A stretch of DNA of 55,152 bases from assembly GCA_021161255.1 (NCBI GenBank), contig JAGHAZ010000009.1, positions 1 through 55,152 on the forward strand, written 5' to 3'. The first letter of the stretch is position 1. Each line of letters starts with the position of its first letter. Positions 14,440 to 30,341 of the stretch are shown here, one piece after another. The translations under genes were made by a program, and so were the position numbers. Under the pieces are notes generated by a model, which worked only from the letters and a program-made list of their open reading frames with translations, was not told the origin of the DNA and ran no database searches. Source of the DNA: Candidatus Bathyarchaeota archaeon. Its GTDB lineage: Archaea; Thermoproteota; CALKCG01; B24.

Positions 14440-15069
14440 GTGGATAACCAGATGCTCAACATTCTAAATAACATATTCATACGTCTACAGAGATGGGTTC
14501 AGGGAATACCTGGTGGGTCGGCGCATCTATACGATAAACTCGCGACTAGATACCTCGAGCCATCCTATGACCATGTCGTAGAGGAGCTTAGAGACAGGGG
14601 ATTCCGGCTGGGATTTGATAGTCGAAGTGGGCTGCGGAACTGGAAAGCTTCTTTTGAAGGTCGCCGAGAAGCTGAAACCCATGCGCATCATAGGAACCGA
14701 CATATCGCGTGCGATGATAAAGATATCCAAACGGAACGCGTCTGAAAGCCGTGACCTCGTCGACCTTATCCTGAGCACAGGCACTCTCCACCATATACGA
14801 CAGCCCCAGAAGTTTTTCAACGAGCGCATAAGAGTGCTCAGGAAGAACGGAGAAGCATGGATATACGAGTTCTCACATGACGTAGAATGCAAAACTTCAA
14901 AGCCATCAAAAGACCACGCATATTTCTTAGGATCTCCGCCGCATTACACGGCATATCCAGAAGAATCTTCGAGAAGGGATACATCAAGGACGCTCTGGAA
15001 AAAGGCAGATACAAGTATAGGCTCAGCTATAACGCGGTGGTAATGAAACTTATACTCAGTAAAACCTAA
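14440..15069 (+). pseudogene. Class I SAM-dependent methyltransferase, frameshifted and internally deleted
   Basis: Pieces of one methyltransferase lie in two frames. The start (AHLYDKLATRYLEPSYDHVVEEL) is in one frame; near 14600 it must shift to reach DLIVEVGCGTGKLLLKVAEKL, the SAM-binding motif I, then GTDISRAMIKISKRNA. The usual 15-20 residues with motif II are missing before DLVDLILSTGTLHHI, an internal deletion. After WIYEFSHDVE, near 14890, a second shift returns to the first frame for the tail (FEKGYIKDALEKGRYKYRLSYNAVVMKL). Two frameshifts plus a deletion make this a dead gene rather than a sequencing error. The substrate is unknown. Confidence 0.82.
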
Positions 15070-15131
15070 GCGAAAAATTTACCTGGAAGATACCTAGTAT
15101 TTTTCGATGTACCCATTTTAGAAAGATATGT

Positions 15132-15205
15132 GGCCGCCGTAACGTAGCCTGGCAGCGTACGGGCCTGTGGAGCCCGGAGGCCGGGTTCAAATCCCGGCGG
15201 CGGCC
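15132..15205 (+). tRNA. tRNA-His (GTG), G-1 encoded
   Basis: The sequence folds into a cloverleaf: acceptor GCCGCCG with CGGCGGC, D-stem ACGT/GCGT, anticodon stem CGGGC/GCCCG with loop CTGTGGA (anticodon GTG), T-arm CCGGG-TTCAAAT-CCCGG, and discriminator C73. The G at 15132 pairs with C73 and is the extra G-1 identity base of tRNA-His, encoded in the gene. No intron and no encoded CCA. Confidence 0.94.
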
Positions 15206-15428
15206 TTTTGATTCTTAAAAAGAGCCCTGAATCGAGCGTATTTTATCTTGATGAAATTGCCCTGAGAACAATCTCGCTGGAATATGTATTGGCGAATATT
15301 CGGCTTCCTCTTAAGATGTGTTCACTCCAGCGAAACGCGGCAAGAGATAGTGCTTGAGCATAGCGTCTAAGGAATCCTGTGATTTGCTACTGCTCATTCG
15401 GTTTCTATATGGTTTTCGACTCGGTGGT

Positions 15429-16124
15429 TTACGCCGTTTTTAGTTCAAGAGCTAGTCCATCGTCGGTTAGGTATAGTCTATGCCAGTCTAAGGTGTGTTT
15501 CGTCAGCGACTTTGCAACCCTTATCTCTACGGTGCTTTCGCGTTCCCTAGTCTCTATCACATAGTCACATATGGATTTCAGGTTTTCCTCGGCGCTCCTA
15601 CTTTGGACGCCAGTATTTAAAAGGTATAGGACTACGCCCTTGTTTTTTCTAGTCTTCGCCTTAAGCCGGTAAACAAGGTTTAGCACAAGCCCCTCATCGC
15701 CTATGATCGTGAATAGTTGGGATATGGAGTGGATGAGTATCCTCGTCACGTCGTCCTCTATCCTGTAGAAGATTTCCCTGACGGCCTCTATACCTGTGAA
15801 CTCTGGAAGTTCGACGAGCTGAGTATATTGGGTGATGACGGGAGCGTAGTAGACGAAACTCAGCTTTCCAGCATCCACGTAGGGCTTCAAGTCCCATCCA
15901 TAGTTAAGCCTCAGCTGAATAGTCAATGTTTCAAGGTCTTGGTTAGTACTCAAGCAGAAGCACTTCTCACCATTCTTCAAACCCTCGTAGAGGAACTGAA
16001 AACCCAGGTGAGACTTAAGCGTACCGACGGGGCCTACGAGAACCACGCTAGAACCCTCGAGGAAGCCTCCCTGAAGAAGAGAATCCAGACCCTTGATCCC
16101 TGTCTTAACTTGGCTAACTTCCAT
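15429..16124 (-). CDS. RecA/KaiC-like ATPase with altered Walker A
   Basis: The protein (231 aa) has the KaiC/RadA-type opening VKTGIKGLDSLLQGGFLEGS and a P-loop that reads GPVGTLKS, in which the usual Gly before Lys is Leu; the Lys-Ser pair is kept. A later TRILIHSISQLF segment occupies the Walker B position but lacks a clear terminal Asp. Archaea have many such KaiC-like or GvpD-like proteins acting as signalling or regulatory ATPases. The substitutions suggest weak or no ATP hydrolysis. I chose ATG 16124 because homology begins at MEVSQVKTG; an upstream frame extends to 16181. It diverges from the amidohydrolase gene. Confidence 0.75.
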   Translation of the reverse strand: MEVSQVKTGIKGLDSLLQGGFLEGSSVVLVGPVGTLKSHLGFQFLYEGLKNGEKCFCLSTNQDLETLTIQLRLNYGWDLKPYVDAGKLSFVYYAPVITQYTQLVELPEFTGIEAVREIFYRIEDDVTRILIHSISQLFTIIGDEGLVLNLVYRLKAKTRKNKGVVLYLLNTGVQSRSAEENLKSICDYVIETRERESTVEIRVAKSLTKHTLDWHRLYLTDDGLALELKTA

Positions 16125-16312
16125 CGACAACCATAAATTTCCAAGAAAAATAAAAACATTACCAAGAATAGAACATGACATTATAAAAGCATCGACGCCC
16201 TCTAGCTCTACTTCACAGAAGATGCCACCATCATTTTCTTCAAATCTCTAGTCGAGGACTAAACGTTTCTCAGTGTTAGATTTATCTACTTACGCTTAAG
16301 TAAATTCTTGGT

Positions 16313-17557
16313 ATGGGTTTTCGAGACGTTTACGAATGGTTGTTGAACGAGTTTGAGGATTTTGTCATAATAGATGCTCATGAGCATCTTCCCCCTGAGA
16401 AGGAAAGGGTTTCGAGGAAGGTCGACGTGTTCACGATGTTCACCCACTACACCAGCACCGACTTGATCACCGCGGGGATGTCTAAGGAGGATTACGAGAA
16501 GATAGTGGACCCAGAGCAGCCCTTAGAGGAACGGTGGAGACTGTTTAAACCCTATTACAAAGTAGCTAAGTATACCTCCTACTTCAGAGCCGCGCGTATC
16601 GCGTTGAAGAAGTTCTACGGTGTGGAAGACTTGACGGATGAGAATTATCTAGAGGCTTCGAACCGTATCCGAGAGGCCAATAAACCCGGTATATACAAGA
16701 GAGTTCTAAGGGATAAATGCCGCATAAAGGTCGTCCTAACCCAGATAGGGCGTATACCCGAGGGGGATAAAGAATTGTTGATTCCTATACTTCCCATGTG
16801 GCTTCTGACAGATATATCTAAGCCCTCAGACCTCGAAGGTAGGAAGCTGAGACCGCGTGTCGACGTTTCAAGCCTTGAAGACTACGTCGCCTACATGAAG
16901 GAACAAGTCGAAAGGTGGAAGCGTGAAGGCGTCGTGGGCCTCAAGTTCTTAGCACGTCGAGTCGAAGAGGTTTGTCGAGAAAGGGCCGAGCGACTGTTTA
17001 AACAACTTCTCGACGGCGAGCTAAAAACGCCTAAGCCGCTGTGGGACTATCTAGTCGATAAAGCGATCGACTTAGCCTCTGAAGTGGGTTGGCCTATATC
17101 GGTCCACACCGGTATATTAGCCGGAAACTGGGGAGACTTCACGGCTACTAGACCGACCCTTTTGATACCGTTACTCAAAAGGCACAGAGAGGCAAAATTC
17201 GACTTATATCACGCAGGCATACCTTGGGTTAGAGAAGCCGGGATCCTGGGTAAAAGCTTTCCGAACGTATGGCTTAACCTATGCTGGTGCCATATCGTAA
17301 GTCAGGATATGACGTGTTCAGCCTTGGACGAGTGGATGGACTTGGTGCCGGTTAACAAGATAATAGGGTTCGGTGGCGACTACAACATTCCGGTTGAGAA
17401 GGTCTATGGCCACTTGGTCATGGCTAGGGAGGACATAGCTAGAACGTTGGCCGGTAGAGTTTCGAGGGGGCTTATGAACAGGACGGAGGCCCTGGATATA
17501 GCACGTATGTGGTTCTACGATAATCCTAGAGAGCTATACAGGTTGGAAAAAGTTTAG
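16313..17557 (+). CDS. Amidohydrolase-family metal-dependent hydrolase (TIM barrel)
   Basis: The 414-residue protein has the metal motif DAHEHL at residues 21-26, a carbamylation-type or metal Lys candidate in VVGLKFLARR, histidines in SVHTG and LYHAG, and a late Asp in GFGGDYN, the layout of amidohydrolase family 2 or uronate-isomerase-like enzymes. The substrate cannot be named; related proteins act on decarboxylations, lactones or uronates. The ATG at 16313 has no Shine-Dalgarno site, and a TATA-like GATTTATC lies about 28 bases before it, so the message is probably leaderless. Confidence 0.8.
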   Translation: MGFRDVYEWLLNEFEDFVIIDAHEHLPPEKERVSRKVDVFTMFTHYTSTDLITAGMSKEDYEKIVDPEQPLEERWRLFKPYYKVAKYTSYFRAARIALKKFYGVEDLTDENYLEASNRIREANKPGIYKRVLRDKCRIKVVLTQIGRIPEGDKELLIPILPMWLLTDISKPSDLEGRKLRPRVDVSSLEDYVAYMKEQVERWKREGVVGLKFLARRVEEVCRERAERLFKQLLDGELKTPKPLWDYLVDKAIDLASEVGWPISVHTGILAGNWGDFTATRPTLLIPLLKRHREAKFDLYHAGIPWVREAGILGKSFPNVWLNLCWCHIVSQDMTCSALDEWMDLVPVNKIIGFGGDYNIPVEKVYGHLVMAREDIARTLAGRVSRGLMNRTEALDIARMWFYDNPRELYRLEKV

Positions 17558-17605
17558 AAAAACGTTTAACCCTCTTCGCCTATGATTCTAGGATGGTGTC
17601 GATGA

Positions 17606-17935
17606 GTGGGGTCTGAGGTATCGATAGGTGATTTCCAGAAGCTCGATATAAGAGTATGTAAGGTGCTTTCGGCAGAGCCGATACCGGGTAGATCCAGGAT
17701 ACTTAAGCTTAAAGTAGACCTCGGAGGAGAAGTCAGAGAGGTAGTGGTCGGTGGTGCAGAATATTACAAGCCAGACTACTTCATAGGTAAATTATTTGTG
17801 ATTCTAGCCAACCTTAAGCCGAAGAAGATAGCCGGGACGCTTTCGAGAGGCATGTTGTTGGCAGCCGACGTAGGTGGAAAACCGATATGGTTGACTGTCG
17901 ACGGATACGCTCCGCCCGGGTCCAAAGTTATATAA
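17606..17935 (+). CDS. tRNA-binding (EMAP-II/Trbp111-like) OB-fold protein
   Basis: The 109-residue protein is a single OB-fold of the type found at the C-terminus of methionyl-tRNA synthetase and in Trbp111: FQKLDIRVCKVLSAEPIPG, then LKLKVDLGG, VVVGGAEYY, and the closing LSRGMLLAADVGG. Such proteins bind tRNA structure and may help charging. It stands alone here, not fused to a synthetase. The start is a GTG at 17606. It follows the amidohydrolase by 48 bases. Confidence 0.88.
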   Translation: MGSEVSIGDFQKLDIRVCKVLSAEPIPGRSRILKLKVDLGGEVREVVVGGAEYYKPDYFIGKLFVILANLKPKKIAGTLSRGMLLAADVGGKPIWLTVDGYAPPGSKVI

Positions 17936-18006
17936 ACCGCTATAACATTTTTAAAAACTGTTTAACATGATAAAATATAAATATATGTTCAAACAAGTTC
18001 AATGTG

Positions 18007-18840
18007 ATGAAAGAGATGGCCAAAGTTGTTAAATATTCTGCCAATTTTAAACGAATTGGAACACTTGAATTCGAGGGTGTTCCAGGGTCTATAGGAGACT
18101 TATTCTCCATAAGTAACCTGCTTAAGACATACCTTGGACTTAGCGAATACGAGTCTAGGATCTACACAGCTATACTTTTGAGAGGTAGCTTAACCGCGGG
18201 TAAGATCGCCATCTACTCAGGTGTTCCAAGAGTTAAGGTGTATTCATGCCTGAAGAGGCTTATGGAAGCCGGTCTCGTCTATGAGGAGCCTGGTCGACCG
18301 GCTAGATATCGTACATTCGACAGTGCACCGACGCTCAGGTTCATAGCCGATAAACTCGAAGGTGAAGCTATGTTGCTAAAGAGGCTTAGCAACATGGTTA
18401 GAAGGGTCGAGGAGGGTAGAAACTATAGTGACGTGTGGGTCTTCGACGACATTAAAGGTTTTGTTTCGAAGATTCAAGAACTCATGTTCGAGGTTAAACG
18501 ATGTTTATCTATCGTGGTAAGCCCTGATGGATTGGCCCTCCTTTACAGGAAGTTAAGTAAAAGCTTAGAATTCGTGGCTAGGAAGGGTATACGGGTTGAG
18601 GTATACGGTAGATCTGGAGGCTGGGCTACTACAGCTTTACGGGAGCTGTCTTACGTCTATAAAGTTCGGGAGGCTATGGTGCCGGAAAACGTGTTCGCCT
18701 TCGCGATAGATTATGAGAGTTGCGTACTCGGGTTTGTAAAGGTTAAGGTCAGGAGTTTTGAAGTGGGGCCACTCATACTTCTTAGGGGCAGAAAGACTGT
18801 AAAGACCCTCTGGAGGGTTTTAACAGGTGTTCTGTTTTAA
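18007..18840 (+). CDS. TrmB-family transcriptional regulator
   Basis: The N-terminal winged helix spans GLSEYESRIYTAILLRGSLT, GVPRVKVYSCLKRLMEAGLV and EEPGRPARYRTFD, the TrmB pattern. A coiled linker and a roughly 130-residue effector domain follow (SIVVSPDGLALLYRKL, then VEVYGRSG). TrmB proteins control sugar uptake or metabolism genes in archaea; the ligand here is unknown. Length is 277-278 residues. The ATG at 18007 is preceded by AAAATATAAATATAT (17973-17987), a strong TATA box placed for a leaderless or near-leaderless message; a GTG one codon earlier is possible. Confidence 0.85.
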   Translation: MKEMAKVVKYSANFKRIGTLEFEGVPGSIGDLFSISNLLKTYLGLSEYESRIYTAILLRGSLTAGKIAIYSGVPRVKVYSCLKRLMEAGLVYEEPGRPARYRTFDSAPTLRFIADKLEGEAMLLKRLSNMVRRVEEGRNYSDVWVFDDIKGFVSKIQELMFEVKRCLSIVVSPDGLALLYRKLSKSLEFVARKGIRVEVYGRSGGWATTALRELSYVYKVREAMVPENVFAFAIDYESCVLGFVKVKVRSFEVGPLILLRGRKTVKTLWRVLTGVLF

Positions 18841-18931
18841 GCGCGTAACCTTGGAGAGCTGAAGAAGGTTACAAAGGGGGTAGATACTCTTTTATAGCGT
18901 TGAGCCGTAAACCCCCTATCAAGGAGTTTGC

Positions 18932-19227
18932 ATGTTCTTTATAACCCTGCTAGATTTAGGGAGAAGCCTACAAGAGAGACTATAGCTAAGACTCAGAAGC
19001 TTTTTGAAGAAGCCGTGAAAGAGGGAGTTAAGGTTTTAGGAGTCTTTTGGACGCTCGGTCGGTGTGACGTGGTTGTCATATCTGAGTGCCCAGAGAAGAC
19101 CCATATGAAGATGGCTGTGAAATTTTCCGAGATGGTTTCGACCGAAAGCCTCCTCGCGATACCGGCAGAGGAGGCCGTAAAGCTAATCGAGTCGGCATCG
19201 TGTGAACGGCTAAAAACTTCGGCGTAG
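18932..19227 (+). pseudogene. GYD-domain protein with a frameshift after residue 7
   Basis: The body matches the GYD family (PF08734): REKPTRETIAKTQKLFEEA, VLGVFWTLGRCDVVVI and a C-terminal TESLLAIPAEEA. The family tyrosine of GRYD is Cys here. The frame that holds the body opens with a TTG at 18928, too close to the AAGGAG at 18921-18926. The ATG at 18932 has ideal spacing and gives MFFITLL, the usual family start, but is one frame off. A single-base indel near 18950 joins MFFITLL to RFREKPTRET. I therefore annotate one gene with a frameshift, real or from the assembly. Confidence 0.75.
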
Positions 19228-19383
19228 TGTATTCACCTTCCTTATCCGTCACCGGTATTTGTACCGCTTCCCGTCTCGAAGCCGTTTTCATCAACACGTA
19301 GGAGGACTAATCGCTACTAGAACCTAGAGCTCGTATGTGTCAACGAAAACCAACCGCTACTGTGCATGCATCCCATTTATACA

Positions 19384-19458
19384 TTTCTATTTCTGACGGC
19401 TATGGAGATGGGTTAAAGATCTGGGGAGTCGGACTGGAAGACCCATCCCACCCCGTTT
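19384..19458 (-). repeat. Copy A of a duplicated MBL-gene 3' end plus flank
   Basis: This stretch matches 25946-26008 in the same orientation. It covers the last codons of an MBL-fold gene (coding NGVGWVFQ), the stop, and about 29 bases of downstream non-coding DNA with only a few mismatches. Copy A has 12 extra bases (four codons) before the stop. Confidence 0.75.
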
Positions 19459-19532
19459 ACGAAGGCTATTAGGATTATCGCGGCCTCGATACCTATCATA
19501 CCTTTCGTAGACCTAGAAACTTTCCTCGTCAA
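19413..19532 (-). pseudogene. Chimeric 39-residue ORF: type IV pilin/archaellin signal segment fused to an MBL C-terminus
   Basis: A TTG at 19532 is preceded by GGAGG seven bases upstream. The ORF encodes a basic leader (MTRKVSRSTK), then GMIGIEAAIILIAFV, a classic class III signal peptide of archaeal pilins with the cleavage site after a basic residue and Gly, Glu near position +5 and a hydrophobic helix. It then passes directly into NGVGWVFQ, the C-terminus of the MBL-fold protein at 25975, and ends after SDSPDL. The pilin body is missing. I infer recombination between a pilin gene and a duplicated MBL gene tail. It may still be translated, but no mature pilin could form. Confidence 0.65.
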
Positions 19533-19595
19533 ACTTAATCCTCCATGAAAGACACTGGTTTTTCTAGGTGGTTTCAGCTAAAAGCCGTGGCTAGT

Positions 19596-21668
19596 TCACT
19601 TCCTTCTAAACTTCAAGAATACTCCTATTACGGCGAGGATAATTATGATGATGGCGATGGCGCCGAAGTATCCCCATCCCGTTGGGACCTCTACCGTGAC
19701 CCTTAAGTCTCTCGATACAGGTTCAGCTTGATCCGAGGTCGCGGTAACAGTTATGTAGTAGTCAGCTGCAAGCGCATCAGGAGGAGGCTTTACCTCAACC
19801 GTGAAATCCGCTGATCTGCCCGGCTCAAGGCGTAGGATATTCTCAGGTTTACTGCTTACCATCCATCCTGAAGGTGCGTCAAACTCTAAATTCACGTTGG
19901 TTATGGTGGACTGTCCCTCATTATAAACAGAAGCTGTCACCTCGCATCCTCTCCCTGCCGTGACCCTGACGTTAAGAGGCGTCAACCGTAGAGTTAACTT
20001 GTAAACACCTTTTACCTTCAGCTTTAATGTAATGCTGTCACTTAGTTGTTTATCTTTCGTCTCAGCTATGACCGGAATCGTGTACTCGCCCGGTGTGATC
20101 CCTCTGCAAGTTGTGACGGTTACTGGAAGACTTAACGAGCCCCCTGCTTCGACCTTTACTTCTGTAGCTTTGAATGTTATATCTAGATCAGGCGATGTGG
20201 TATTTGTTAAAAAGTGGATGAGTTCATCTTCATCTCCCTCATTTGTCACAGTTATCTCATAGGTTACCGCGGTACCTGCCTCGGTGGTTAATGAGGGATA
20301 TGTGCAATCCAATTTTATCCCTCTTTTAACTGGTTCGAGAATGACCTTGAGTTCAATCTCTTCACTAAGGTTTCCTCCACTAACTATAAAGTTAAGTAAA
20401 TAATCCCCTTCCTTCGCATTTTCCGGGATCTCTATATATACCCCTATAACAGCTGAGGCTTCACTTTTAAGCGCTAAACACGTTATTTCCTTCTCTTCAT
20501 AAAAGAAACGTGCTCTCCAATTCGTGGGAAGACCTTCTAATAGTGGATTAAAGACCCTCTCTTCCACACCTGAGTATCTAAGCTCGACATCGAACCACAC
20601 ACTAGACCCTGCTCTCGCTACTTGAACAGGGGTCATAGTCCATAACTCTAGATCATATCGTGGAGGCTTTGGAGGTTTAACAGCGATCGCGTACTCAAGC
20701 GATGAACTAAATCCACTATTGGAGATAGCCGTTAACTTCAAGCTGTAGTTTCCGATAGCATCCTTAGGGATATCTATTTTAAGGTGAAGCAACTTTTTGC
20801 CTCCGCTGGGTAAGCTAATCTTTGTCAATTCACCTGATTCATCCACTATTTTAGTGCCCCAGCCTTCAGGAGAGCTTACATCGAATGTGACAGTCGTCTC
20901 TAGTTCGCTTTCGACGATGAAAGGTATAAGTAACTCTTCCCCTGCGTTTGCAACCCTACCTAAAACCTCTGAATAAAGTCTTAAAACCTTCGGCTCCTCC
21001 ATGGGTTTAACCAATATGGTGAAGTTCAACGTTGAACTCGTTTTCCCGGTGGCCGTTAATAATAAACTTCCGTTTCCCGTGAAGCTTGATGGAATCCTGA
21101 CTTTCAACTGAAGAGCCAAGCTAGAGCTGGGTGGTAAGCCCACTTTCATAACCTCACCGACTTGATCCTCCAGAATTCTCACGGACCAACCCTCAGGTTT
21201 AGATACTGAAAGCTCTACCACCTCGTATTCTTCACCCATATTTTCTATAGTGAATGGAAGCGTTACTTCATCTCCGGAAGTCGCTATGCAACTTAAGACC
21301 GAAGAGTATAGCTTTAACGCTTTAAACAAAACGATCTCACCAAGATCTATATTATGGGTTAGCTCTAACGAAACTCTTTTAGTAAGGTATCCTGTCTTTG
21401 AAAAATAAACGTCATATGTGGAAGAGGGAAGGTGGCGAAAACGGAAATATCCCTTAGAATTCGTATATGTGACATCATACAGAGTATCATTACCTGAGAA
21501 ATATATTTCAACTTTAACGTCATCTAATCCTTCACCGTTTTCATTCAATACTCTACCGCGTATAAAATAGTCTGTTATTGCTGATGCTAAGTTGATAGAG
21601 GATGCTGTGAAATTTAGAAAAATAAGGATTATGAGACAAATGACTTGCTTTCGAAGCTCTCTTCTCAT
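19596..21668 (-). CDS. Large surface protein: signal peptide, carboxypeptidase-like domain, tandem NEW3/Ig-like domains, C-terminal membrane anchor
   Basis: The 690-residue protein has an N-terminal signal (VICLIILIFLNFTASSINLASA), then a carboxypeptidase-regulatory-like beta-sandwich (FIRGRVLNENGEGLDDVKVE to YDVYFSKTGYLTKRV). Five or so repeated beta-sandwich domains follow, each with a PEGW or PSGW strand and a KIDIPKDA-type strand before the next NYSLKLTA, as in NEW3/CARDB-like domains. A single membrane helix (YFGAIAIIIIILAVIGVFL) and FRRK end it. It is therefore anchored with nearly everything outside. N-x-S/T sites are frequent. It is the last gene of the operon with the ABC permease (13-base gap) and ATPase, so it probably acts with that transporter. 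Confidence 0.82.
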   Translation of the reverse strand: MRRELRKQVICLIILIFLNFTASSINLASAITDYFIRGRVLNENGEGLDDVKVEIYFSGNDTLYDVTYTNSKGYFRFRHLPSSTYDVYFSKTGYLTKRVSLELTHNIDLGEIVLFKALKLYSSVLSCIATSGDEVTLPFTIENMGEEYEVVELSVSKPEGWSVRILEDQVGEVMKVGLPPSSSLALQLKVRIPSSFTGNGSLLLTATGKTSSTLNFTILVKPMEEPKVLRLYSEVLGRVANAGEELLIPFIVESELETTVTFDVSSPEGWGTKIVDESGELTKISLPSGGKKLLHLKIDIPKDAIGNYSLKLTAISNSGFSSSLEYAIAVKPPKPPRYDLELWTMTPVQVARAGSSVWFDVELRYSGVEERVFNPLLEGLPTNWRARFFYEEKEITCLALKSEASAVIGVYIEIPENAKEGDYLLNFIVSGGNLSEEIELKVILEPVKRGIKLDCTYPSLTTEAGTAVTYEITVTNEGDEDELIHFLTNTTSPDLDITFKATEVKVEAGGSLSLPVTVTTCRGITPGEYTIPVIAETKDKQLSDSITLKLKVKGVYKLTLRLTPLNVRVTAGRGCEVTASVYNEGQSTITNVNLEFDAPSGWMVSSKPENILRLEPGRSADFTVEVKPPPDALAADYYITVTATSDQAEPVSRDLRVTVEVPTGWGYFGAIAIIIIILAVIGVFLKFRRK

Positions 21669-21681
21669 GTAAAGATCTCTC

Positions 21682-22605
21682 CTAACGGATCTCTTGCCTC
21701 ATGAAGAGTATGTATGAAGCCGCGAACGTGGCGACGAGAACCGCTACGATCACTGTGATTTCTGGCCAGGATAGAGCTAGACACTCAAGCAGGCTTGGCG
21801 GGGTCGGTGGAGGCTTCCCCGGCTCTATTATAAGCACGCTGCCGCGGAATGCGCTTCCGAGTATGGATCGCGCCGCCTCACGGTAGCAACACGTCGGGGA
21901 GAACATTTCTATGGCTCTAATCACCTCGAAGTGCCTCTCCCATTCTTCTTTGTGCGGAATATAGCCGCCATGGATGGGTGTTACGATATTAGCGATCAAG
22001 CTTGCGATGCTGTAGATTAGGTTTGTGCTGACAAGCCACGTTATGATGGAGGCGAGAAGGGATGAAGATGTATCCCGCATCATAACCGAGAAGAGCATAC
22101 TCACTCCAAGCCACATCACCATGTATAGGCTTGTGAACACCATGAAAGTTAATAACCTCGCCGCCTCATCTCCCGTTGGAGCTACACCTGTCAACGTGAT
22201 TACGGTCGCTAAACCCAGTGCTATAGCAGTGAAGGAGGCTAACGTAAGCGTACATGCTCCTGCTACCAGCTTCCCGTTGATCACTGAGTCCCTGAACACG
22301 GGATGGGTGAGAAGCGTTACCAGCGATCCGCTGTCCCTCTCCTGCGAGATCGCGGCGAACCCGATCGCTATTCCAAGGAGGGGGCCTATAACCGCTATCT
22401 TCTCAGTTATTCCCCACGTGAATACGGCTAAGAAGGCTGACTGCCCCGGTATAAACACCTCAGCACCTTCTTGAAAATACTGTTGCACACCTTCGTATGC
22501 CGAGCACAGGATCAACATGGTTAGCACCGCGAAGATTACGATGAACTTGATGCTGGAGAGGTGGTCAATTAACTCCTTTCGCGCTATCGTCCACAACCCA
22601 GCCAT
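21682..22605 (-). CDS. ABC-2 family transporter permease
   Basis: This 307-residue permease has about six membrane helices. The first follows WTIARKELIDHLSSIK; the cytoplasmic signature AISQERDSGSLVTLLTHPVFR is typical of ABC-2 permeases of the gliding/NosY type. A roughly 80-residue extracytoplasmic loop sits before the final helix. The ATPase gene ends one base before this gene begins on the minus strand, so the two are translationally close. With the NEW3 protein it forms an envelope ABC unit. Confidence 0.87.
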   Translation of the reverse strand: MAGLWTIARKELIDHLSSIKFIVIFAVLTMLILCSAYEGVQQYFQEGAEVFIPGQSAFLAVFTWGITEKIAVIGPLLGIAIGFAAISQERDSGSLVTLLTHPVFRDSVINGKLVAGACTLTLASFTAIALGLATVITLTGVAPTGDEAARLLTFMVFTSLYMVMWLGVSMLFSVMMRDTSSSLLASIITWLVSTNLIYSIASLIANIVTPIHGGYIPHKEEWERHFEVIRAIEMFSPTCCYREAARSILGSAFRGSVLIIEPGKPPPTPPSLLECLALSWPEITVIVAVLVATFAASYILFMRQEIR

Positions 22606-23544
22606 CTAAGTCCACCCCCTTCCATAGATCTTCAGGAAAACCTCTTCCAGACTTGGTTGAACGATATGCATCGTCAGTATTAGCGCCCCTGCTTCAGCTA
22701 TCGTGACCGCTAGCTCCTCTCTTAAGTCATGGTTCGCGAAGATCATAAGCTCATTTCCATTTTGATGCACGTTTCGAACCCCAGGCACCTCTGTAATCGA
22801 TTTCAGCAAGTTATTGTCAAGTTTATTCAGCTCAAGCCTTATGCGGACGCCTTCCTCGGGAGACAGCTGCTTCACCAAGTTTTCAAAGGTATCTACGGCG
22901 ATTAATTTTCCATCCTTCATGATGCCGATTCGGCTACATAGCTGCTTAACCTCCGGCAAAACATGGGATGTCACGACAGCCGTTAACCCCTCCTCTCTAC
23001 ATAGCCTTTGAATAAGCATCCTCACCTCTCTTATACCTTGCGGGTCCAAGCCCGCTGTCGGCTCGTCTAGAAACACGATCTTCGGCTCGTTGATCAAGGC
23101 TTGGGCGATTCCGAGGCGCCGCCTCATCCCACGGGAGAATTTTCCCACTTTGACATCCTTCCACTTGCTTAGACCCACGATCTCTAGGAGGCTTTCGATC
23201 CTCTTAGCCCGCTTCGATCTCGGTATGTCGTTGAGTTGGGCGTAGAAGTCTAGGTTCTGCTTGGCTGTGAGGTTGTCGTAGCATGCGAAACGGTCATGCA
23301 GATAACCGGTGACCCTCTTCACCTCACGTGGTTCCTTAACGACATCAAATCCGGCCACTATGGCTTTTCCAGAGGTAGGCTCGATGAGGCCTGTGAGCAT
23401 CATGAGTGTAGTCGTCTTTCCAGCGCCGTTTGGACCTAGGAGACCGAAAATCTCTCCTTCGCGTACCTCAAGGTTGAGGTTATCTACCGCCGTTAGTTCG
23501 CCGTACTTCTTGGTTAGGTTCTTTACATCAATTATGGTCGACAC
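22606..23544 (-). CDS. ABC transporter ATP-binding protein
   Basis: The 312-residue ATPase has Walker A GPNGAGKTTT, signature FSRGMRRRLGIAQAL, Walker B IVFLDEPTAGLDPQG and the switch His in TSHVLPEV. A C-terminal accessory region of about 90 residues (from EEGVRIRLELN) ends in QPSLEEVFLKIYG, as in ABC-2 exporters. The start is a GTG whose first codons overlap the 3' end of the preceding small membrane-protein gene by 13 bases. It pairs with the permease directly downstream. Confidence 0.92.
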   Translation of the reverse strand: MSTIIDVKNLTKKYGELTAVDNLNLEVREGEIFGLLGPNGAGKTTTLMMLTGLIEPTSGKAIVAGFDVVKEPREVKRVTGYLHDRFACYDNLTAKQNLDFYAQLNDIPRSKRAKRIESLLEIVGLSKWKDVKVGKFSRGMRRRLGIAQALINEPKIVFLDEPTAGLDPQGIREVRMLIQRLCREEGLTAVVTSHVLPEVKQLCSRIGIMKDGKLIAVDTFENLVKQLSPEEGVRIRLELNKLDNNLLKSITEVPGVRNVHQNGNELMIFANHDLREELAVTIAEAGALILTMHIVQPSLEEVFLKIYGRGWT

Positions 23545-23834
23545 TGCTTAACCACCTCACTACTTTGCCGATGGCTCCTCAGTTTGTATACGAGAAAAAC
23601 CACCAAACCGACAGCTCCATACATGGTTACGGTTTCTCCTGGCATGTAGAAGTCTTTGTCGAAGTTTATTGAGCATCGGAGTTGAGGAAACTGGGCGAGC
23701 ACGGATGCAATGAAGAGCATCGCTACACATGTAATGGGTAATGCAGCGGTATCCATCCATTTTGTTCCCGTTCTTCTCCGCCTTGGGTCATGCTTTAAAC
23801 TCTTCATCTTGACATTCCTACTAACCTGATACAT
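23532..23834 (-). CDS. Small membrane protein with a macroglobulin-like strand motif
   Basis: This 100-residue protein opens the operon. It has a basic N-terminus, a membrane helix (AALPITCVAMLFIASVLA), a short loop with FDKDFYMPGETVTMYG, and a second helix (AVGLVVFLVYKL). The FDKDFYMPGETV piece is the first strand of macroglobulin/Ig-like domains, which normally continue for 80 residues or more; here the rest is absent. It may be a shortened relic of a bitopic surface protein or a genuine small subunit. Start options are ATG 23834 or an internal ATG at codon 10. The BlaI-type operator lies immediately upstream. Confidence 0.55.
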   Translation of the reverse strand: MYQVSRNVKMKSLKHDPRRRRTGTKWMDTAALPITCVAMLFIASVLAQFPQLRCSINFDKDFYMPGETVTMYGAVGLVVFLVYKLRSHRQSSEVVKQCRP

Positions 23835-23837
23835 ATC

Positions 23838-23854
23838 TACTAACCAGGTTAGTA
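23838..23854. promoter_or_regulatory. Perfect 8-1-8 palindrome, candidate BlaI/MecI-type operator
   Basis: TACTAACC-A-GGTTAGTA lies between the divergent ABC operon and the BlaI-like gene. It starts and ends with TACTA and TAGTA, as BlaI/MecI operators do. A second TACTAACC half-site lies 19 bases to the left (23819-23826) and an AGTAATTACT palindrome lies at 23885-23894. On the plus strand GTATATAA (23863-23870) is a TATA box ahead of the ATG at 23898. The site could control both directions. Confidence 0.55.
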
Positions 23855-23897
23855 TGGGTAATGTATATAAGTCTTACTGTCAATAGTAATTACTGCT

Positions 23898-24350
23898 ATG
23901 TTTAGTAGCAATTCTACCGCCGATTACATGCCCTCTGATTATCGCATTAGCGGCAGGAAATTAGAGACGATCCTCGGTCCTTTGGAAGCTCGTGTCATGG
24001 AAATAGTTTGGGAGATGAAGGCACCTGTTTCTGTCAGGATGGTGTATGAAAAACTCAGGAAGGAGAGGAAAATCGCGTACACAACCGTTATGTCTACTAT
24101 GAACACCCTATTTGAGAAGGGGCTTCTAGACCGAAAGATCGTCAGGGGAAGGGGCGGGTTACTCTACGTCTACTGGCCTAAGCTCAGTAAAGAAGAGGTT
24201 GAGCGCTCGGTGGTCAAGCAAGTAATCGATAGCTTGATGAGGAACTTCGGCAACTCGGTAACCTCATATCTGGTGGAAATAACCGCCTCTGACAAGGAAA
24301 AACTTAAAGTCTTTAAGAAATTGTTCGAAAGTCTCGAAAGAGAAGGATAG
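23898..24350 (+). CDS. BlaI/MecI/CopY-family repressor
   Basis: The 150-residue protein has the Penicillinase_R winged helix: LGPLEARVMEIVWEMKAPVSVRMVYE, then IAYTTVMSTMNTLFEKGLLDRK and a wing with GGLLYVYWPKLS. A C-terminal helical part follows for dimerisation. In bacteria such repressors are cleaved or released when a BlaR1/MecR1 metallopeptidase senses an envelope signal; the next gene encodes a membrane metallopeptidase, which supports the same logic here. The ATG at 23898 is about 28 bases after a TATA box, so the transcript has almost no leader. Confidence 0.9.
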   Translation: MFSSNSTADYMPSDYRISGRKLETILGPLEARVMEIVWEMKAPVSVRMVYEKLRKERKIAYTTVMSTMNTLFEKGLLDRKIVRGRGGLLYVYWPKLSKEEVERSVVKQVIDSLMRNFGNSVTSYLVEITASDKEKLKVFKKLFESLEREG

Positions 24351-24356
24351 ACGGAA

Positions 24357-25817
24357 ATGATAACCTTTTTAGATCCTATATCCGATTTGACGCAACCCTT
24401 CTTCTTCTACTCCGTAGTCTTCTCTATTTTACTCGCATCTTTAACGTATATTACCGTTAAGATACTTAAGATACATAATCCCCGGTTCAAAAGTTTCTTC
24501 TACATGATACCGTTATTTCTCCCTCTAGTGGTCTACGCGATATTCCCTCCATCATATATCTCTTATAGGAGTTTTACAATCGTCGCTAAGATATCCAATC
24601 CGGCGAAGCTTGAAGATGTCTCTATCGACAGTTTTTCGGTTAAGACAGCCGATCTTAAAGTTTTTACGATGCAAGTTTTCTCCATAACAGGTCTACTCTG
24701 CCTAACGGGATTAATAGCAGGCACGGTTATCCTAGCTTTTCTTTACGTGTTTGGCAGCAGAATAGTATGTTGGCTTCAGGGGGTTGTGGAGCTTATGCCC
24801 GAAGAAGAACCAGAACTTTTAGCAATGGTGAGGAGGCTAGCTGGAAGAGCTGGGATATCCATGCCACGTATAGGAATCACCGAGGATCTCAGACCCAACG
24901 CATTCACCATCGGCTATGGAAAGAATGCGATGATAGTGTTTTCATTAGGGCTTCTGAAAATGCTCGACGGGGCTGAACTTGAAGCTGTGGTATCCCACGA
25001 AATAGCTCACATCAAGAACCAGGACTTCCACTTCAACGCATTGACCTCAGCGTTGAAGATCGTCTCATTCTTCAACCCCCTCGTCTACCTCTTATCCTCA
25101 ACCATTAAAAAGGAGAGGGAGTTCCTCGCCGACAACACCGGAATGAAGCTCATAGAAAGACCTTGGGTCCTCGGACTAGCCTTAAAGAAGATATGGGAAA
25201 ACTCCAAAAGATCTTCGAGAGGCCTACTAAGACAGCGAATCTCCAGCTTCTTTATCGCCTCCGAGATCAGGCATGTAAGGAAACTTCTAGCCACGCACCC
25301 CAGCTTAGAGAGCAGATTAAACAACATTGCAGAGAGGACGTATCGGAAAAATGCAAGCCGGGGTGAAGTGTTAAGAGGGATCCTAGCCTGCGCCCTCATC
25401 GTCATGGTGATAGTATGCTTTTACGGTCTATCGACTTGGGTGCATGATCCGTTGACCCAGATGCGTATCCCTGTTAAAGAAGCGAATGTAATATCTTTGA
25501 CGCATAAAGGTGCTTATAGATTAGTAATTTCACTCCTGACTAATTTTAACCCTGAAGAAGCCGCTAAAGATAGGGGTAAAGTGATCTTTCTCTCAGAAAA
25601 GTTTGACCCTGAGCAGTTAACCTCATCTCCCCTTTATCTCTATACTTCTGTTACGTCAGCTAGGTCTCATCCATTTCCTCCCTTCTACCTTAGCCAGGTT
25701 TCAGTGTCCACCTATTCCTGGATCCTAACATCTATCGATATAATAGCGGTGGCGATAATCTTGTCACTTTTCTACCGCAGCGACTTCGGAAAAGCCATAA
25801 AGAAACTGTTGAAATGA
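24357..25817 (+). CDS. Membrane-bound zinc metallopeptidase, M48/M56 (BlaR1-like context)
   Basis: The 486-residue protein has about two N-terminal membrane helices (residues 18-36 and 48-64), an external loop, another helix (108-133), a cytoplasmic peptidase with HEIAH at 214-218 and the third zinc ligand Glu in EREFLAD (about 255), and further helices at 230-250, about 343-357 and at the C-terminus. The core NAFTIGYGKNAMIVFSLGLL is HtpX-like (M48). Six bases separate it from the BlaI-like gene, the BlaI-BlaR1 arrangement. A roughly 80-residue C-terminal loop before the last helix could be the external sensor, but no penicillin-binding domain is present. Confidence 0.88.
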   Translation: MITFLDPISDLTQPFFFYSVVFSILLASLTYITVKILKIHNPRFKSFFYMIPLFLPLVVYAIFPPSYISYRSFTIVAKISNPAKLEDVSIDSFSVKTADLKVFTMQVFSITGLLCLTGLIAGTVILAFLYVFGSRIVCWLQGVVELMPEEEPELLAMVRRLAGRAGISMPRIGITEDLRPNAFTIGYGKNAMIVFSLGLLKMLDGAELEAVVSHEIAHIKNQDFHFNALTSALKIVSFFNPLVYLLSSTIKKEREFLADNTGMKLIERPWVLGLALKKIWENSKRSSRGLLRQRISSFFIASEIRHVRKLLATHPSLESRLNNIAERTYRKNASRGEVLRGILACALIVMVIVCFYGLSTWVHDPLTQMRIPVKEANVISLTHKGAYRLVISLLTNFNPEEAAKDRGKVIFLSEKFDPEQLTSSPLYLYTSVTSARSHPFPPFYLSQVSVSTYSWILTSIDIIAVAIILSLFYRSDFGKAIKKLLK

Positions 25818-25945
25818 GCCAGTAGACTGTCTTTGAGAAATGAATTCGACTCTGCTGGCTAATGTTAAGGTTGTTCAGAATTTAGACATGGTAAAATCTC
25901 CGCTACACGTGTAGGAGAACGGTGGAAACGTCCCTATAAACCAGT

Positions 25946-26008
25946 TTTCTATTTCTGACAGTTGTGGAGATGAGTTAAGGCTCTTGGAAGACCCATCCCA
26001 CCCCGTTT
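25946..26008 (-). repeat. Copy B (source copy) of the duplicated MBL-gene 3' end plus flank
   Basis: This is the 3' end of the intact MBL gene plus 29 bases of downstream DNA, and it matches 19384-19458. Similarity into the non-coding flank shows that DNA was copied, not merely a conserved protein motif. Confidence 0.75.
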
Positions 26009-26712
26009 TCGACGTATCGCTCCCCTAGAACCTTCTTGATCCCACGCTTAGCGTCGCCGCGGGTGCAGTGGCATGGGGAGACGAGCTGGACACCTATTTC
26101 GCTTAGCCGCCTTGCGACCCTGAGCCCCTCGTTTAGGCTGGAGATGTGGAAGCCGCCTACGACGGCGTACACTTTATCTACCCCTGAAACGGACCTAGCC
26201 AGCTCAACCGTGTGGACTATTCCCGGGTGGCTGCATCCGGTTAACACGATAAGCCCTTTGTCTCGAAGGTTTATCAGCAGCGAGTGCTCGCTTATCCCGT
26301 TGGGTATCTCTCCGGTCGACATCACGCCTCTCACGACCCCGGTGGGCTTGGAGCAGACTACGGGAACCCCACGAGCGTTCTCGACCATCTTGATCCCGTA
26401 GATGTCCTCGGATGGCACGTACACGGGGACCGGTTTGCCTATCATGGGTAGGACGTGACTTAGGGAGCCGCAGTGGTCTCCATGCCAGTGGGAGATGAAA
26501 ACCGCATCGATATCTGTGAGGTTTACGCCGAGCATGGAGGCGTTGTATAGGAGCACGTCGAAGGAGCCGCTCGTATCCATCAGGATCACAGACCGCCTCG
26601 CCTTGAGGAACACTTCGACGTACAGCGAGAGCCCCCACGCAGACCTTAAGCTCCCCCTTAGGACATCGTTATCTACGAGGGTTGTTATCCTAACGTCGTC
26701 TACCGACTCCAT
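25975..26712 (-). CDS. Metallo-beta-lactamase-fold hydrolase
   Basis: The protein (245 aa) has the MBL zinc motif ISHWHGDHCGSL, then TGCSHPGI, GGFH and PCHCT. This layout fits the MBL subgroup related to the dihydropteroate-synthase-like 4-(beta-D-ribofuranosyl)aminobenzene 5'-phosphate synthase family of archaea, which works in methanopterin synthesis; this is suggestive only. I place the start at ATG 26712 because AATATAAG lies about 30 bases upstream (leaderless); a GTG at 26721 is the longer option. Its C-terminus NGVGWVFQEP is the part duplicated at 19.4 kb. Confidence 0.8.
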   Translation of the reverse strand: MESVDDVRITTLVDNDVLRGSLRSAWGLSLYVEVFLKARRSVILMDTSGSFDVLLYNASMLGVNLTDIDAVFISHWHGDHCGSLSHVLPMIGKPVPVYVPSEDIYGIKMVENARGVPVVCSKPTGVVRGVMSTGEIPNGISEHSLLINLRDKGLIVLTGCSHPGIVHTVELARSVSGVDKVYAVVGGFHISSLNEGLRVARRLSEIGVQLVSPCHCTRGDAKRGIKKVLGERYVENGVGWVFQEP

Positions 26713-26800
26713 TCTGACCACGTTACCGCATTACCGAGGCTTATATTCTATGCGTGTCCAAAGGCTCATCGGTCGCCTCTCCCCTCTGGTTTTTTCCATG

Positions 26801-26823
26801 ATAAATTACCTCAGGTAATTTAT
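26801..26823. promoter_or_regulatory. Perfect 11-1-11 palindrome
   Basis: ATAAATTACCT, one C, then AGGTAATTTAT: a perfect inverted repeat lying 17 bases past the esterase stop and about 90 bases before the MBL start on the same strand. It could be a terminator hairpin for the esterase or an operator. No T-run follows, so an operator is at least as likely. Confidence 0.5.
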
Positions 26824-26839
26824 TAGGATACTCCATCTC

Positions 26840-27704
26840 TTAACGATTTCTATCCTTGAGATGCTTGTTGAAGAACTCTAAAACCCTTTTGAGCATAGGC
26901 TCTGGGGGTATTCCATGTCCGGCCTCGTACCAGTAGACCTCCTTGGGCTCTCCGGCTTTTTCGGCGAGCTGTCTCTGGGTTTCGACTGGAACTATGTCGT
27001 CGTATCGGCCGCAGTGGAACTGGATCGGCCTTGGAGAGAATAGGTGTATGAAGTTTATCGGGTCTATGGGAGCCAGGATCTCACCGAGCCTCTCGTAGCT
27101 TATTCCAAGCTCCTTCAGCCTAGCCCTTATAGGAGGTGTGGAGTAGTGTCTGCTCTCCCTTATCATGAGGGGGGAGGTTCCCTCCCCCGACGACTATGAC
27201 CGCCGCCTTTATCCTAGGCTCGACGCTCACGAATAGGGCGCCTATGATGCCTCCCATGCTTCCTCCTCCATACCCTACCCTACGGCTATCCACCTCATCT
27301 CTGGCTTCGAGAAAATCCACACCCCTCCTCAGGTCTAGAACAGTCTGTACGACGTTTGCCTTAAGCTCCTCAAGGTCGGGTGAATAGAGGACCTTACCCG
27401 GCTCTGAGCGTTCACCGTGGAAAGGCGCGTCTATAGAGAAGACCGAGTATCCATAGGCCGAGAAGACGTTAGCTAGCTGAAGCCCATCCCCCTTTCGACC
27501 ACCATACCCGTGTAGGAAGACTATACATGGGTAAGGCGGCTCATACCCCTTAGGTACGGTTAAAACGGCCGGAACGGTCTGCCCACCCACGCTACGATAA
27601 TACAGCTTATACGCCACATAGCCTTCGCTTTCCCAAGACTTTGAAACGATAGGGTTTAAAGGCTCAGACCGGTCATACTCATAAAGCCCGAGGTATTCGG
27701 CCAT
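26840..27704 (-). pseudogene. Alpha/beta hydrolase (acetyl-esterase/dienelactone-hydrolase type), one-base frameshift
   Basis: Two overlapping frames together make one esterase of about 290 residues. The first has the oxyanion strand IVFLHGYGGRKGDG and the nucleophile GGGSMGG; the second has the acid GRYDDIVP and the His of GHGIP. Removing one C from a run of six C (about 27174-27179) joins VVGGGNLP to LMIRESRHYSTPP in frame. The whole catalytic triad is otherwise intact. This may be a homopolymer indel in the assembly or a recent mutation. The start at ATG 27704 has GGGGTGA five bases upstream. The likely role is deacetylation of sugars or xenobiotics. Confidence 0.8.
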
Positions 27705-27833
27705 ACACTCACCCCTCGCTAAACTCTTCCCCACTTCACATCCTTAAGATTAACCTACGACCAGACTCAAGTGTAAGCGTCATCCTGAAGAAATTTAAAT
27801 AAGCCTGTTTTGAATCTATTTCTAAGGTAGATT

Positions 27834-27908
27834 GGTCCGGTAGCTCAGCCTGGTTAGAGCACCAGCTTGGTAAGCTGGGGGTCGCGGGTTCAAACCCCGC
27901 CCGGACCT
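27834..27908 (+). tRNA. tRNA-Thr (GGT)
   Basis: Cloverleaf: acceptor GGTCCGG/CCGGACC, D-stem GCTC/GAGC, anticodon stem CCAGC/GCTGG with loop TTGGTAA (anticodon GGT), T-arm GCGGG-TTCAAAC-CCCGC, discriminator T. No intron, no encoded CCA. AAATTTAAATAAG (27790-27802) upstream is a suitable TATA box. Confidence 0.95.
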
Positions 27909-27946
27909 CTAATTTTGTTGCAAGGATTCGGAGGTCTATATTCTTG

Positions 27947-30187
27947 CTAGATTTGTCCTTTTTTGATAGACCTTAATATTAGCGTTCTTTGCTCGGTCAT
28001 CACGGGTATTCCGTTTTCATAGTAGCGGGTTGTGCATTCGTCTTTGACTAGCCCGGCCTCGGAGGATGTCCATGAGTAGCCTTCGTAGGTTATCGTTATG
28101 TTTCTCCCGTCTAGGGTGAACTGGTTGGTTTCGCTATACCTTACCTTCGCGCATAGGTAGACCGTGCCGTCCTCGGCTGTGACGTTCTCGAAACCCACCA
28201 CCTTCTCCGTACCCGTCAGCTTACCACGGCTCTCCCTCCCCTGTATGCTCAAGGTGTAGCCGCTTTCATAGCTCCAAGTTTTACCCTTGATAAGCGGGTA
28301 CGGAGGCTTCGGAATAGGCTCGTCGTATATGACCTCTATGCCGTCTGACGTCCACCAGACGAGGGAGCCGTTCTCGTCGAAATGGTAGAGCGTCGTCATG
28401 TTCGGACGTTCAACCAAGACCTCGAGCTCGCTGACCTTGATCCACCTAACAAGATGCTTCTCGCCATTCACCTGCTCCGTGAAGTTCTTCACGGTCCCGA
28501 CAGGCAGCTCAGGCTCCGTCACCTGATACATCTCAGCCTCGGCGGGTTTCTCAGCCGGAGGTATCACCTTCACCTCGGCTATAGCCGACGCTAGGTTCAG
28601 TATCACCCGGTAGTTATCCTCGACGTAGCAGTATGGTTCCCTGAACAACGTCAGGTCTGCCAACGCTATGACCGTTCCATTCCCCCTACCGGCTAGAGCT
28701 ATGACCGTGTAGTTCCCAGCCCTCTCAGCGGCCGAAGAATAAGTGCCGTTGGACGCCCATGCTACGCCACCCGTAGCGTATATGTGGGTCGCGGTGAACA
28801 TGACGAGCGTCGATATGTTACGCGTCACAGGGCTCTCGGCGAACGTTTTTACGTATATGTTCCGGTAGAGCCCGTAGTAGTCCTCCTCGTTGTACAGGTA
28901 TCCCTTAGCAAACGCCATACCGAACCTTGTCGCGAGAGAGTTTATCGGGCCGAAGAGCTCGGGCACCAGAAGATACTCGTAAGCCGGGTCGAATATCAGT
29001 ATAAGGAGCCTACCTGCCTTAACGAACTCCTCGATCCTATCGCACTCTTCGACCGTGTATGGAATAGTCGGACAGGCCACTATGAGACAAGACGCGTTGT
29101 CTAGACCCTCGCTAAGCTCACTCCATCCAGAGACGAACCTCACGGTGATATTCCTCTTAGCAAGCTCGCCTATCACCACGTCGAGCTCCCAAGCCGAAAC
29201 CTCGTTCCCGTGGGACCTATCTACGAGAACCACACCCCCACCGCCTCCGCCGAAGACCTCGGCCGTCATGTTTTCGACCCGGGCCTCGGTAGACGGTACG
29301 CCCTGAGCCAACGCCTTAGGCGGGAGGTATAGATACCATAGGGCGGGTGGGGGCTGTATCTCGTTTAAAACATCCAAGGTCAGGTTCCTCCAGTCTAGCG
29401 TCTGGTTATGGTAAGACCAGAGGTAGCTGAGCCTGCGTTCCACGGCTTTATTCAGGTCTACCACCTCGTACTCCACAAGCCCAGCCTCCTCGGCGACCCT
29501 CCTGACCGCCTTCTGAAGAGAGCCGACCTCGTCCACCAGCCCCAGCTCCACGGCTTCAGCCCCGAAGTATATGAGCCCCTTCTTAAGCTCGCTAGACGAC
29601 AGTTTCAGACGGTCGCCTCTGCCAGTCTCCACGGCCGAGACGAAGCTTTCCAACGCCCTACTCAGGTTGAACGAGAAAAGGAGCTTGGAGAAACCGGTGA
29701 CCTTATACGGCCCCGACTCTAGGTAGAACTCTGAAGGTATAAGCATGGGAGGAGCCGTTCCTATGACACCTACGCTCCCGACCACAGACGTGGGCGTCGC
29801 GTAGATATAGTCGGCGGCCACCGCTATGTAGTAGCCTCCAGACAACGCCATCGTAACCGACGCGGCCACGGGTTTAACCTTCTTCAACTCCAGAAGGTCC
29901 AAGTATATCTCCTCCACCAGGTCGGCGTATCCTCCCGGGGAGTTTATCCTGACGACGACGGCCTTGACGCTGTCGTTCAAGAGGGCATAGTTTATCATAT
30001 CCACATACCACGAGGCATCCTCTGAACGTAGGATAGGGCCGTCGACCGTTATGACCGCGACCAGAGGCTTTCTAGCCTGAAGAACTATCGTATAGTAGAA
30101 GTATCCTCCGGCTCCGAAAGCTACCGCGATGCATACGATAACCGTTATGGCTAGAATCCTCTTGAATCCGAGCTTTTCAACCGCCAT
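27947..30187 (-). CDS. sppA: SppA-like S49 membrane protease fused to a large extracytoplasmic C-terminal region
   Basis: The N-terminal 250 residues are an S49 signal-peptide-peptidase: membrane helix at 9-36, RINSPGG, nucleophile Ser116 in MALSGGYYIAV, SVVGSVGVIG, and the likely general-base Lys162 in ESGPYKVTGFS. Such proteases cut leftover signal peptides in the membrane. About 490 more residues follow, which SppA proteins do not usually have: a DUF4350-like glutaminase-fold segment (VVLVDRSHGNEVS, then CLIVACPTIPY and LLILIFDP) and a C-terminal beta-rich part with many N-glycosylation-type sites and a KGKTWSYESGYTLSIQG segment. All of this would lie outside the membrane. The fusion suggests substrate binding or regulation. 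Gene complete, start ATG. Confidence 0.85.
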   Translation of the reverse strand: MAVEKLGFKRILAITVIVCIAVAFGAGGYFYYTIVLQARKPLVAVITVDGPILRSEDASWYVDMINYALLNDSVKAVVVRINSPGGYADLVEEIYLDLLELKKVKPVAASVTMALSGGYYIAVAADYIYATPTSVVGSVGVIGTAPPMLIPSEFYLESGPYKVTGFSKLLFSFNLSRALESFVSAVETGRGDRLKLSSSELKKGLIYFGAEAVELGLVDEVGSLQKAVRRVAEEAGLVEYEVVDLNKAVERRLSYLWSYHNQTLDWRNLTLDVLNEIQPPPALWYLYLPPKALAQGVPSTEARVENMTAEVFGGGGGGVVLVDRSHGNEVSAWELDVVIGELAKRNITVRFVSGWSELSEGLDNASCLIVACPTIPYTVEECDRIEEFVKAGRLLILIFDPAYEYLLVPELFGPINSLATRFGMAFAKGYLYNEEDYYGLYRNIYVKTFAESPVTRNISTLVMFTATHIYATGGVAWASNGTYSSAAERAGNYTVIALAGRGNGTVIALADLTLFREPYCYVEDNYRVILNLASAIAEVKVIPPAEKPAEAEMYQVTEPELPVGTVKNFTEQVNGEKHLVRWIKVSELEVLVERPNMTTLYHFDENGSLVWWTSDGIEVIYDEPIPKPPYPLIKGKTWSYESGYTLSIQGRESRGKLTGTEKVVGFENVTAEDGTVYLCAKVRYSETNQFTLDGRNITITYEGYSWTSSEAGLVKDECTTRYYENGIPVMTEQRTLILRSIKKGQI

Positions 30188-30341
30188 ACAGCAACCTCTA
30201 GGTTATTCACAACCATGATATTTTAAAGTATCCCAGCCGAGCTGGGATTCGACAAAGGGATAACAGACCTTCTGTAGAAGGATTCATTAGACAGATACCG
30301 TCTATCCGGGGTTTAGGAGGGTTTATCATACGAGAGTTAAA

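Follow-up and report, generated by a model that had tools for sequence, protein, structure and literature searches.

Crenarchaeal integrated elements are bounded by att repeats of 29-69 bp, and archaeal integrated elements are known to insert into the 3'-distal regions of protein genes (PMC6563490). The window analyzed here, a stretch of 55,152 nucleotides of a Candidatus Bathyarchaeota archaeon (contig JAGHAZ010000009.1), contains a comparable arrangement. Direct repeats of att-like length are located at the edges of a block of foreign genes, and the presumed target gene, which encodes an MBL-fold hydrolase, is intact at one edge, while its 3' end is repeated at the far edge. Direct repeats at the edges, a whole target gene with a 3' fragment opposite to it and foreign DNA between them are among the features by which elements of the tyrosine-recombinase type are recognized. 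This island differs from the integrated elements described (PMC6563490), however, in that it lacks a recombinase gene (none of its six ORFs encodes an integrase, relaxase or transposase), its repeats are not identical, no empty site is found and its cargo consists of transporter and peptidase genes. Because the integrase gene is absent, the island is not classified as a site-specifically integrated element, but only as one that would work like such an element.

The genes of the island and their order are those of the ABC-NEW3-BlaI-M56 cassette of Bathyarchaeota archaeon B71_G16 (genome G061, contigs C32 and C149), with protein identities of 46-84%, but the B71_G16 cassette has other flanks, with neither the MBL repeat nor an archaellin start, and B71_G16 contains an extra ABC-NEW3 copy. 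A 39-codon frame at the left edge of the island, referred to as the junction ORF, resembles archaellin genes (PF01917, Arch_flagellin) in its 25 N-terminal codons with a class III signal peptide and in its ribosome-binding site, but differs from them in that it is cut at codon 25 and is devoid of the remaining hydrophobic helix and the outer domain. Judging from the sequences, we consider this frame, with a probability of roughly two-thirds, to be a non-functional junction, which marks one edge of an island that was acquired horizontally and would have entered at the MBL 3' end. The features of the locus are listed in Table 1.

Table 1. Positions of the repeats, the junction ORF and the genes of the locus in the window
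Feature	Positions	Strand	Basis
GYD-domain gene, last gene on the left flank	18928-19227	+	
Left direct repeat, copy of MBL 3' end and 3' flank	19384-19462	+	Alignment, whole-genome search
Junction ORF, 39 codons, TTG start	19413-19532	-	Archaellin N-terminus and MBL tail in one frame
Truncated archaellin 5' end, 25 codons, class III signal peptide KGMIGIEAAIILIAFV	19458-19532	-	Archaellin N-terminus profile and DNA matches
Foreign island, extent of homology with B71_G16 contigs C32 and C149	19593-25854		DNA homology
NEW3/NPCBM_assoc-domain surface protein	19596-21668	-	82% DNA identity to L033 (B71_G16, C149)
ABC-2 permease	21682-22605	-	80% protein identity to B71_G16 counterpart
ABC ATPase	22606-23544	-	84% protein identity to B71_G16 counterpart
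Small cassette protein	23532-23834	-	46% identity over ~75 aa to B71_G16 counterpart
BlaI/penicillinase-repressor-type regulator	23898-24350	+	
M48/M56-type membrane metallopeptidase	24357-25817	+	
Right direct repeat, 3' end of intact MBL gene and 3' flank	25946-26012	+	Alignment, whole-genome search
MBL-fold hydrolase, presumed target gene	25975-26721	-	YVxNGxG tail native to its family

Direct repeats and the island between them

Alignment of 19384-19532 with 25946-26008, which the earlier note had proposed, reveals the two direct repeats listed in Table 1. They are located on the same strand and are identical at 60 of 67 positions, with an additional 12-nt insertion in the left copy. The seven mismatches are distributed over the 3' flank (33 of 39 positions identical) and the coding tail (27 of 28 identical), and the longest exact stretch is 24 bp. 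The 12-nt insertion preserves the reading frame, and the TAA stop is therefore shared by the two copies. The sequence further leftward (19359-19383) is only approximately 64% identical and is not counted as a part of the repeat. When the 79-base repeat is used as a query against the whole 1.67 Mb assembly, only two copies are detected (E values of 1.2e-35 and 5.4e-12), and the next match has an E value of 0.21. A dispersed repeat or a mobile element family is rejected, because only these two copies are present in the genome. A viral origin is also rejected, since 23 bases of the repeat core have no exact match in the viral contigs scanned, and a plasmid search with 19240-19600 gives no match.

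The DNA between the repeats is foreign to the surrounding sequence. A 15.3-kb query (15000-30300) matches the B71_G16 genome at 19591-23589 and 23865-25854 with 68-82% DNA identity (72-82% for the island genes), and the matches of this query outside the island are limited to tRNA genes and one 338-bp stretch at 66%. The order NEW3, permease, ATPase, small protein, BlaI and M56 is identical in contig C32 of B71_G16, and the second ABC-NEW3 copy of this genome is located on contig C149. Of 398 genomes of the phylum, two contain the permease at E<=1e-60, namely that of the window (G000) and G364; G364 and G061 are taken as one genome, because the coordinates of the permease contig in the former coincide with those in the latter. 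The tetranucleotide correlation with the window is approximately 0.54 for B71_G16 and 0.96 for the same-genus genome G001. Within the window, this value decreases to 0.77 in slices of the island, as compared to approximately 0.9 elsewhere, and the host-versus-donor score changes over near 19.6 kb and again near 26.0 kb. The left repeat ends approximately 130 nt outside the left limit of homology, and the right repeat starts 91 nt outside the right limit. These results indicate with high confidence that the block is a horizontally shared island. The two copies of the MBL end are thus direct repeats that bracket a foreign island, a relation that the earlier note had missed. Because the repeats flank a horizontally acquired island, the presence of an MBL tail 6.5 kb away from the MBL gene is explained.

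No viral relatives are detected with the ABC ATPase or M56 as a query, and a phage search with the permease gives no match. The small cassette protein consists of 100 aa in the window and 221 aa in contig C32 of B71_G16, and an internal deletion may have truncated the window copy. The NEW3 protein encoded on C32 (L108, 1836-4628; 930 aa) gives two overlapping matches to the window protein, which appears to reflect an internal duplication.

Composition of the junction ORF

The junction ORF, described in the earlier note as a 39-codon frame with GGAGG and a TTG start, is present on the minus strand, with GGAGG located 7 nt upstream of TTG, and its translation is MTRKVSRSTKGMIGIEAAIILIAFVNGVGWVFQSDSPDL. 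A profile was built from ten archaellin N-termini of relatives and searched against the 1535 frames obtained by six-frame translation of the window. The stop-to-stop frame 19416-19577 on the minus strand matches this profile with an E value of 1.3e-11, while the next frame gives an E value of 1.5. The class III signal peptide reported previously is intact and belongs to an archaellin-like segment, instead of a generic pilin. The profile alignment stops at a valine codon (19458-19460), where the MBL-derived part starts. In a search with the DNA of 19459-19509 alone, three genomes of the phylum give matches to archaellin genes, and DNA matches to archaellin genes come from approximately 11 genomes, including further ones from the order of B71_G16. 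In these further genomes, every archaellin match starts at 19459, which is the base where the MBL-derived part ends. Following IAFV, archaellins continue with I/V-V/I-A, whereas the junction ORF continues with NGVGWVFQ.

The 3' part of the junction ORF consists of 14 codons from the MBL-derived repeat DNA. Its tail is native to MBL and foreign to archaellin, because YVxNGxGxI or a similar sequence is the usual ending of MBL orthologues at 40-60% identity. The earlier proposals that this tail is the end of the MBL gene and that it arose by recombination, rather than by convergence, are borne out, since the duplicated DNA extends into the non-coding flank. The position of the junction, previously placed at approximately 19455, is corrected to approximately 19458-19462. 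The archaellin and MBL parts have TCG in common at the join, and this overlap of approximately three bases may be interpreted as in illegitimate joining. Neither half of the junction ORF gives a match in shuffled windows. It is nearly certain that the join is real within the assembly.

The archaellin start is located between the left repeat and the stop codon of the NEW3 gene. Its DNA identity to archaellin genes (32-37 of 48 positions) is alike for the order of B71_G16, G001 and others and does not separate donor from host. The left margin of approximately 130 nt that contains this start (19463-19595) is host-like rather than donor-like in composition, but is short for this score.

Proposed insertion at the MBL gene end and alternative histories

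The arrangement may be accounted for as follows. The ABC transporter/NEW3 cassette and the BlaI-M56 pair would have entered from, or be common to, a distantly related archaeal lineage. Insertion of the block at the 3' end of the MBL gene would have generated two direct copies of this end, of which the right copy completes the MBL gene and the left copy is located at the far edge of the block. The left copy would then abut 25 codons from the start of an archaellin gene that was cut just inside the edge, and the two parts would be in one frame by chance. It is likely that the repeats and the insertion result from one event. Whether att-like site-specific recombination, mediated by an integrase that is now absent, was the mechanism is an evenly balanced matter when judged by analogy with the elements described above. 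Because neither an integrase nor an empty site is found, we infer site-specific integration, rather than observe it. Among the relatives compared, contig C16 of G001 ends at the base that matches position 17049 of the window, and the nearest MBL orthologues show 60% identity or less. The seven mismatches and the 12-nt difference between the repeats count against this model, as does the host-like composition of the left margin, although this margin is too short to decide. If the model is correct, the insertion of an island can produce, as a by-product, a small chimeric gene that looks convincing, and the transfer of a transporter/BlaI-peptidase cassette between lineages of uncultured archaea is delimited by near-exact edges. 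A broader proposal, in which the ABC-NEW3-BlaI-M56 block, as a mobile cassette, moves between distant archaeal lineages without its own integrase, uses the 3' end of a protein gene as an attachment site and collects gene starts, such as that of archaellin, at its edge, is speculative and improbable.

The host-like left margin is compatible with an alternative history, in which deletion joined a resident archaellin gene to a duplicate of the MBL 3' segment, or to the remains of a second MBL copy, and the island arrived later and independently between the copies. Also in favor of this alternative, the repeats are read as old, because they have diverged by approximately 10%, and a full archaellum operon, including two archaellins, is present in the same-genus G001. 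It requires several events, however, and leaves the position of the repeats at both ends of the island unexplained. We therefore regard it as unlikely. A misjoining of contigs at short repeats during assembly is still less probable. The assembly is a draft of 85 contigs, the exact repeat is only 24 bp long and the composition between the repeats is foreign, but two misjoins would be required, one at each edge, only approximately 3 bp are common at the archaellin join, the repeats are not identical and the order of the block is that of B71_G16 contig C32.

On the right side of the island, window positions 26840-27734 contain two overlapping frames, which seem to represent a single alpha/beta hydrolase (acetyl xylan esterase-like) that a frameshift has disrupted. 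The tRNA-Thr gene beside the MBL region (27834-27909) looks like an integration site in G001, because DNA with an SSV-type integrase-like gene (PF16795, below the cut-off) replaces the sequence left of the 3' half of this gene on contig C19 (L109, 1668-2512).

Coding capacity of the junction ORF and archaellum-like genes

The intact class III signal peptide, the Shine-Dalgarno sequence GGAGG with a TTG start and the location on the same strand as the NEW3 gene, 63 nt downstream of it, would be consistent with a real, expressed short pilin-like protein, in which an archaellin signal segment has acquired a new tail. Past the predicted cleavage site, however, the archaellin helix accounts for only about 14 residues, followed by 14 unrelated ones, and the predicted mature product therefore lacks most of the N-terminal helix and the outer domain. 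A search of Pfam-A with the 39-mer gives no match, to PF01917 or any other family. The frame is absent beside the NEW3 genes of B71_G16, and no counterpart of the 39-aa protein is found. An expressed protein of this kind is very unlikely, and the junction ORF is best regarded as a scar that is probably inert as a gene. A structured RNA is rejected, because the Rfam matches are tRNAs only.

The proposal of the earlier note that the motor operon at 10.3-13.6 kb may have lost its pilin partner, with the fragment as the remnant, is scarcely tenable even though this operon encodes an archaeal type IV pilus/archaellum-like motor in the same window, since the fragment is of the archaellin type and is located at the edge of a foreign island, the orthologous motor on contig C16 of G001 also has no recognized archaellin beside it, and G000 has an archaellum-like operon (contig C28) and a pilin-like gene (contig C44) elsewhere.

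A genome-wide PF01917 search of G000 detects no archaellin above the cut-off, and the archaellum type of G001 and G061 is not found in this genome. A search for Arch_fla_DE (PF04659) is uninformative, because genomes with clear archaellum operons are also missed. A literature search on the archaellum in Brockarchaeota and on archaellin pseudogenes yielded nothing useful. Complete loss of archaellum-like genes in G000 is rejected on the basis of the operon on C28 (L077, 1037-7352), which contains FlaH-, FlaI- and FlaJ-like genes and an archaellin-like C-terminus that is cut by the contig end. This operon is of a type distinct from those of G001 and G061 and encloses a gene for a ParA/MinD-like ATPase. 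The FlaJ-like frame of the operon contains an in-frame TAG that interrupts it, although TAG is an ordinary stop codon in G000 (16 of 37 long frames of the window).
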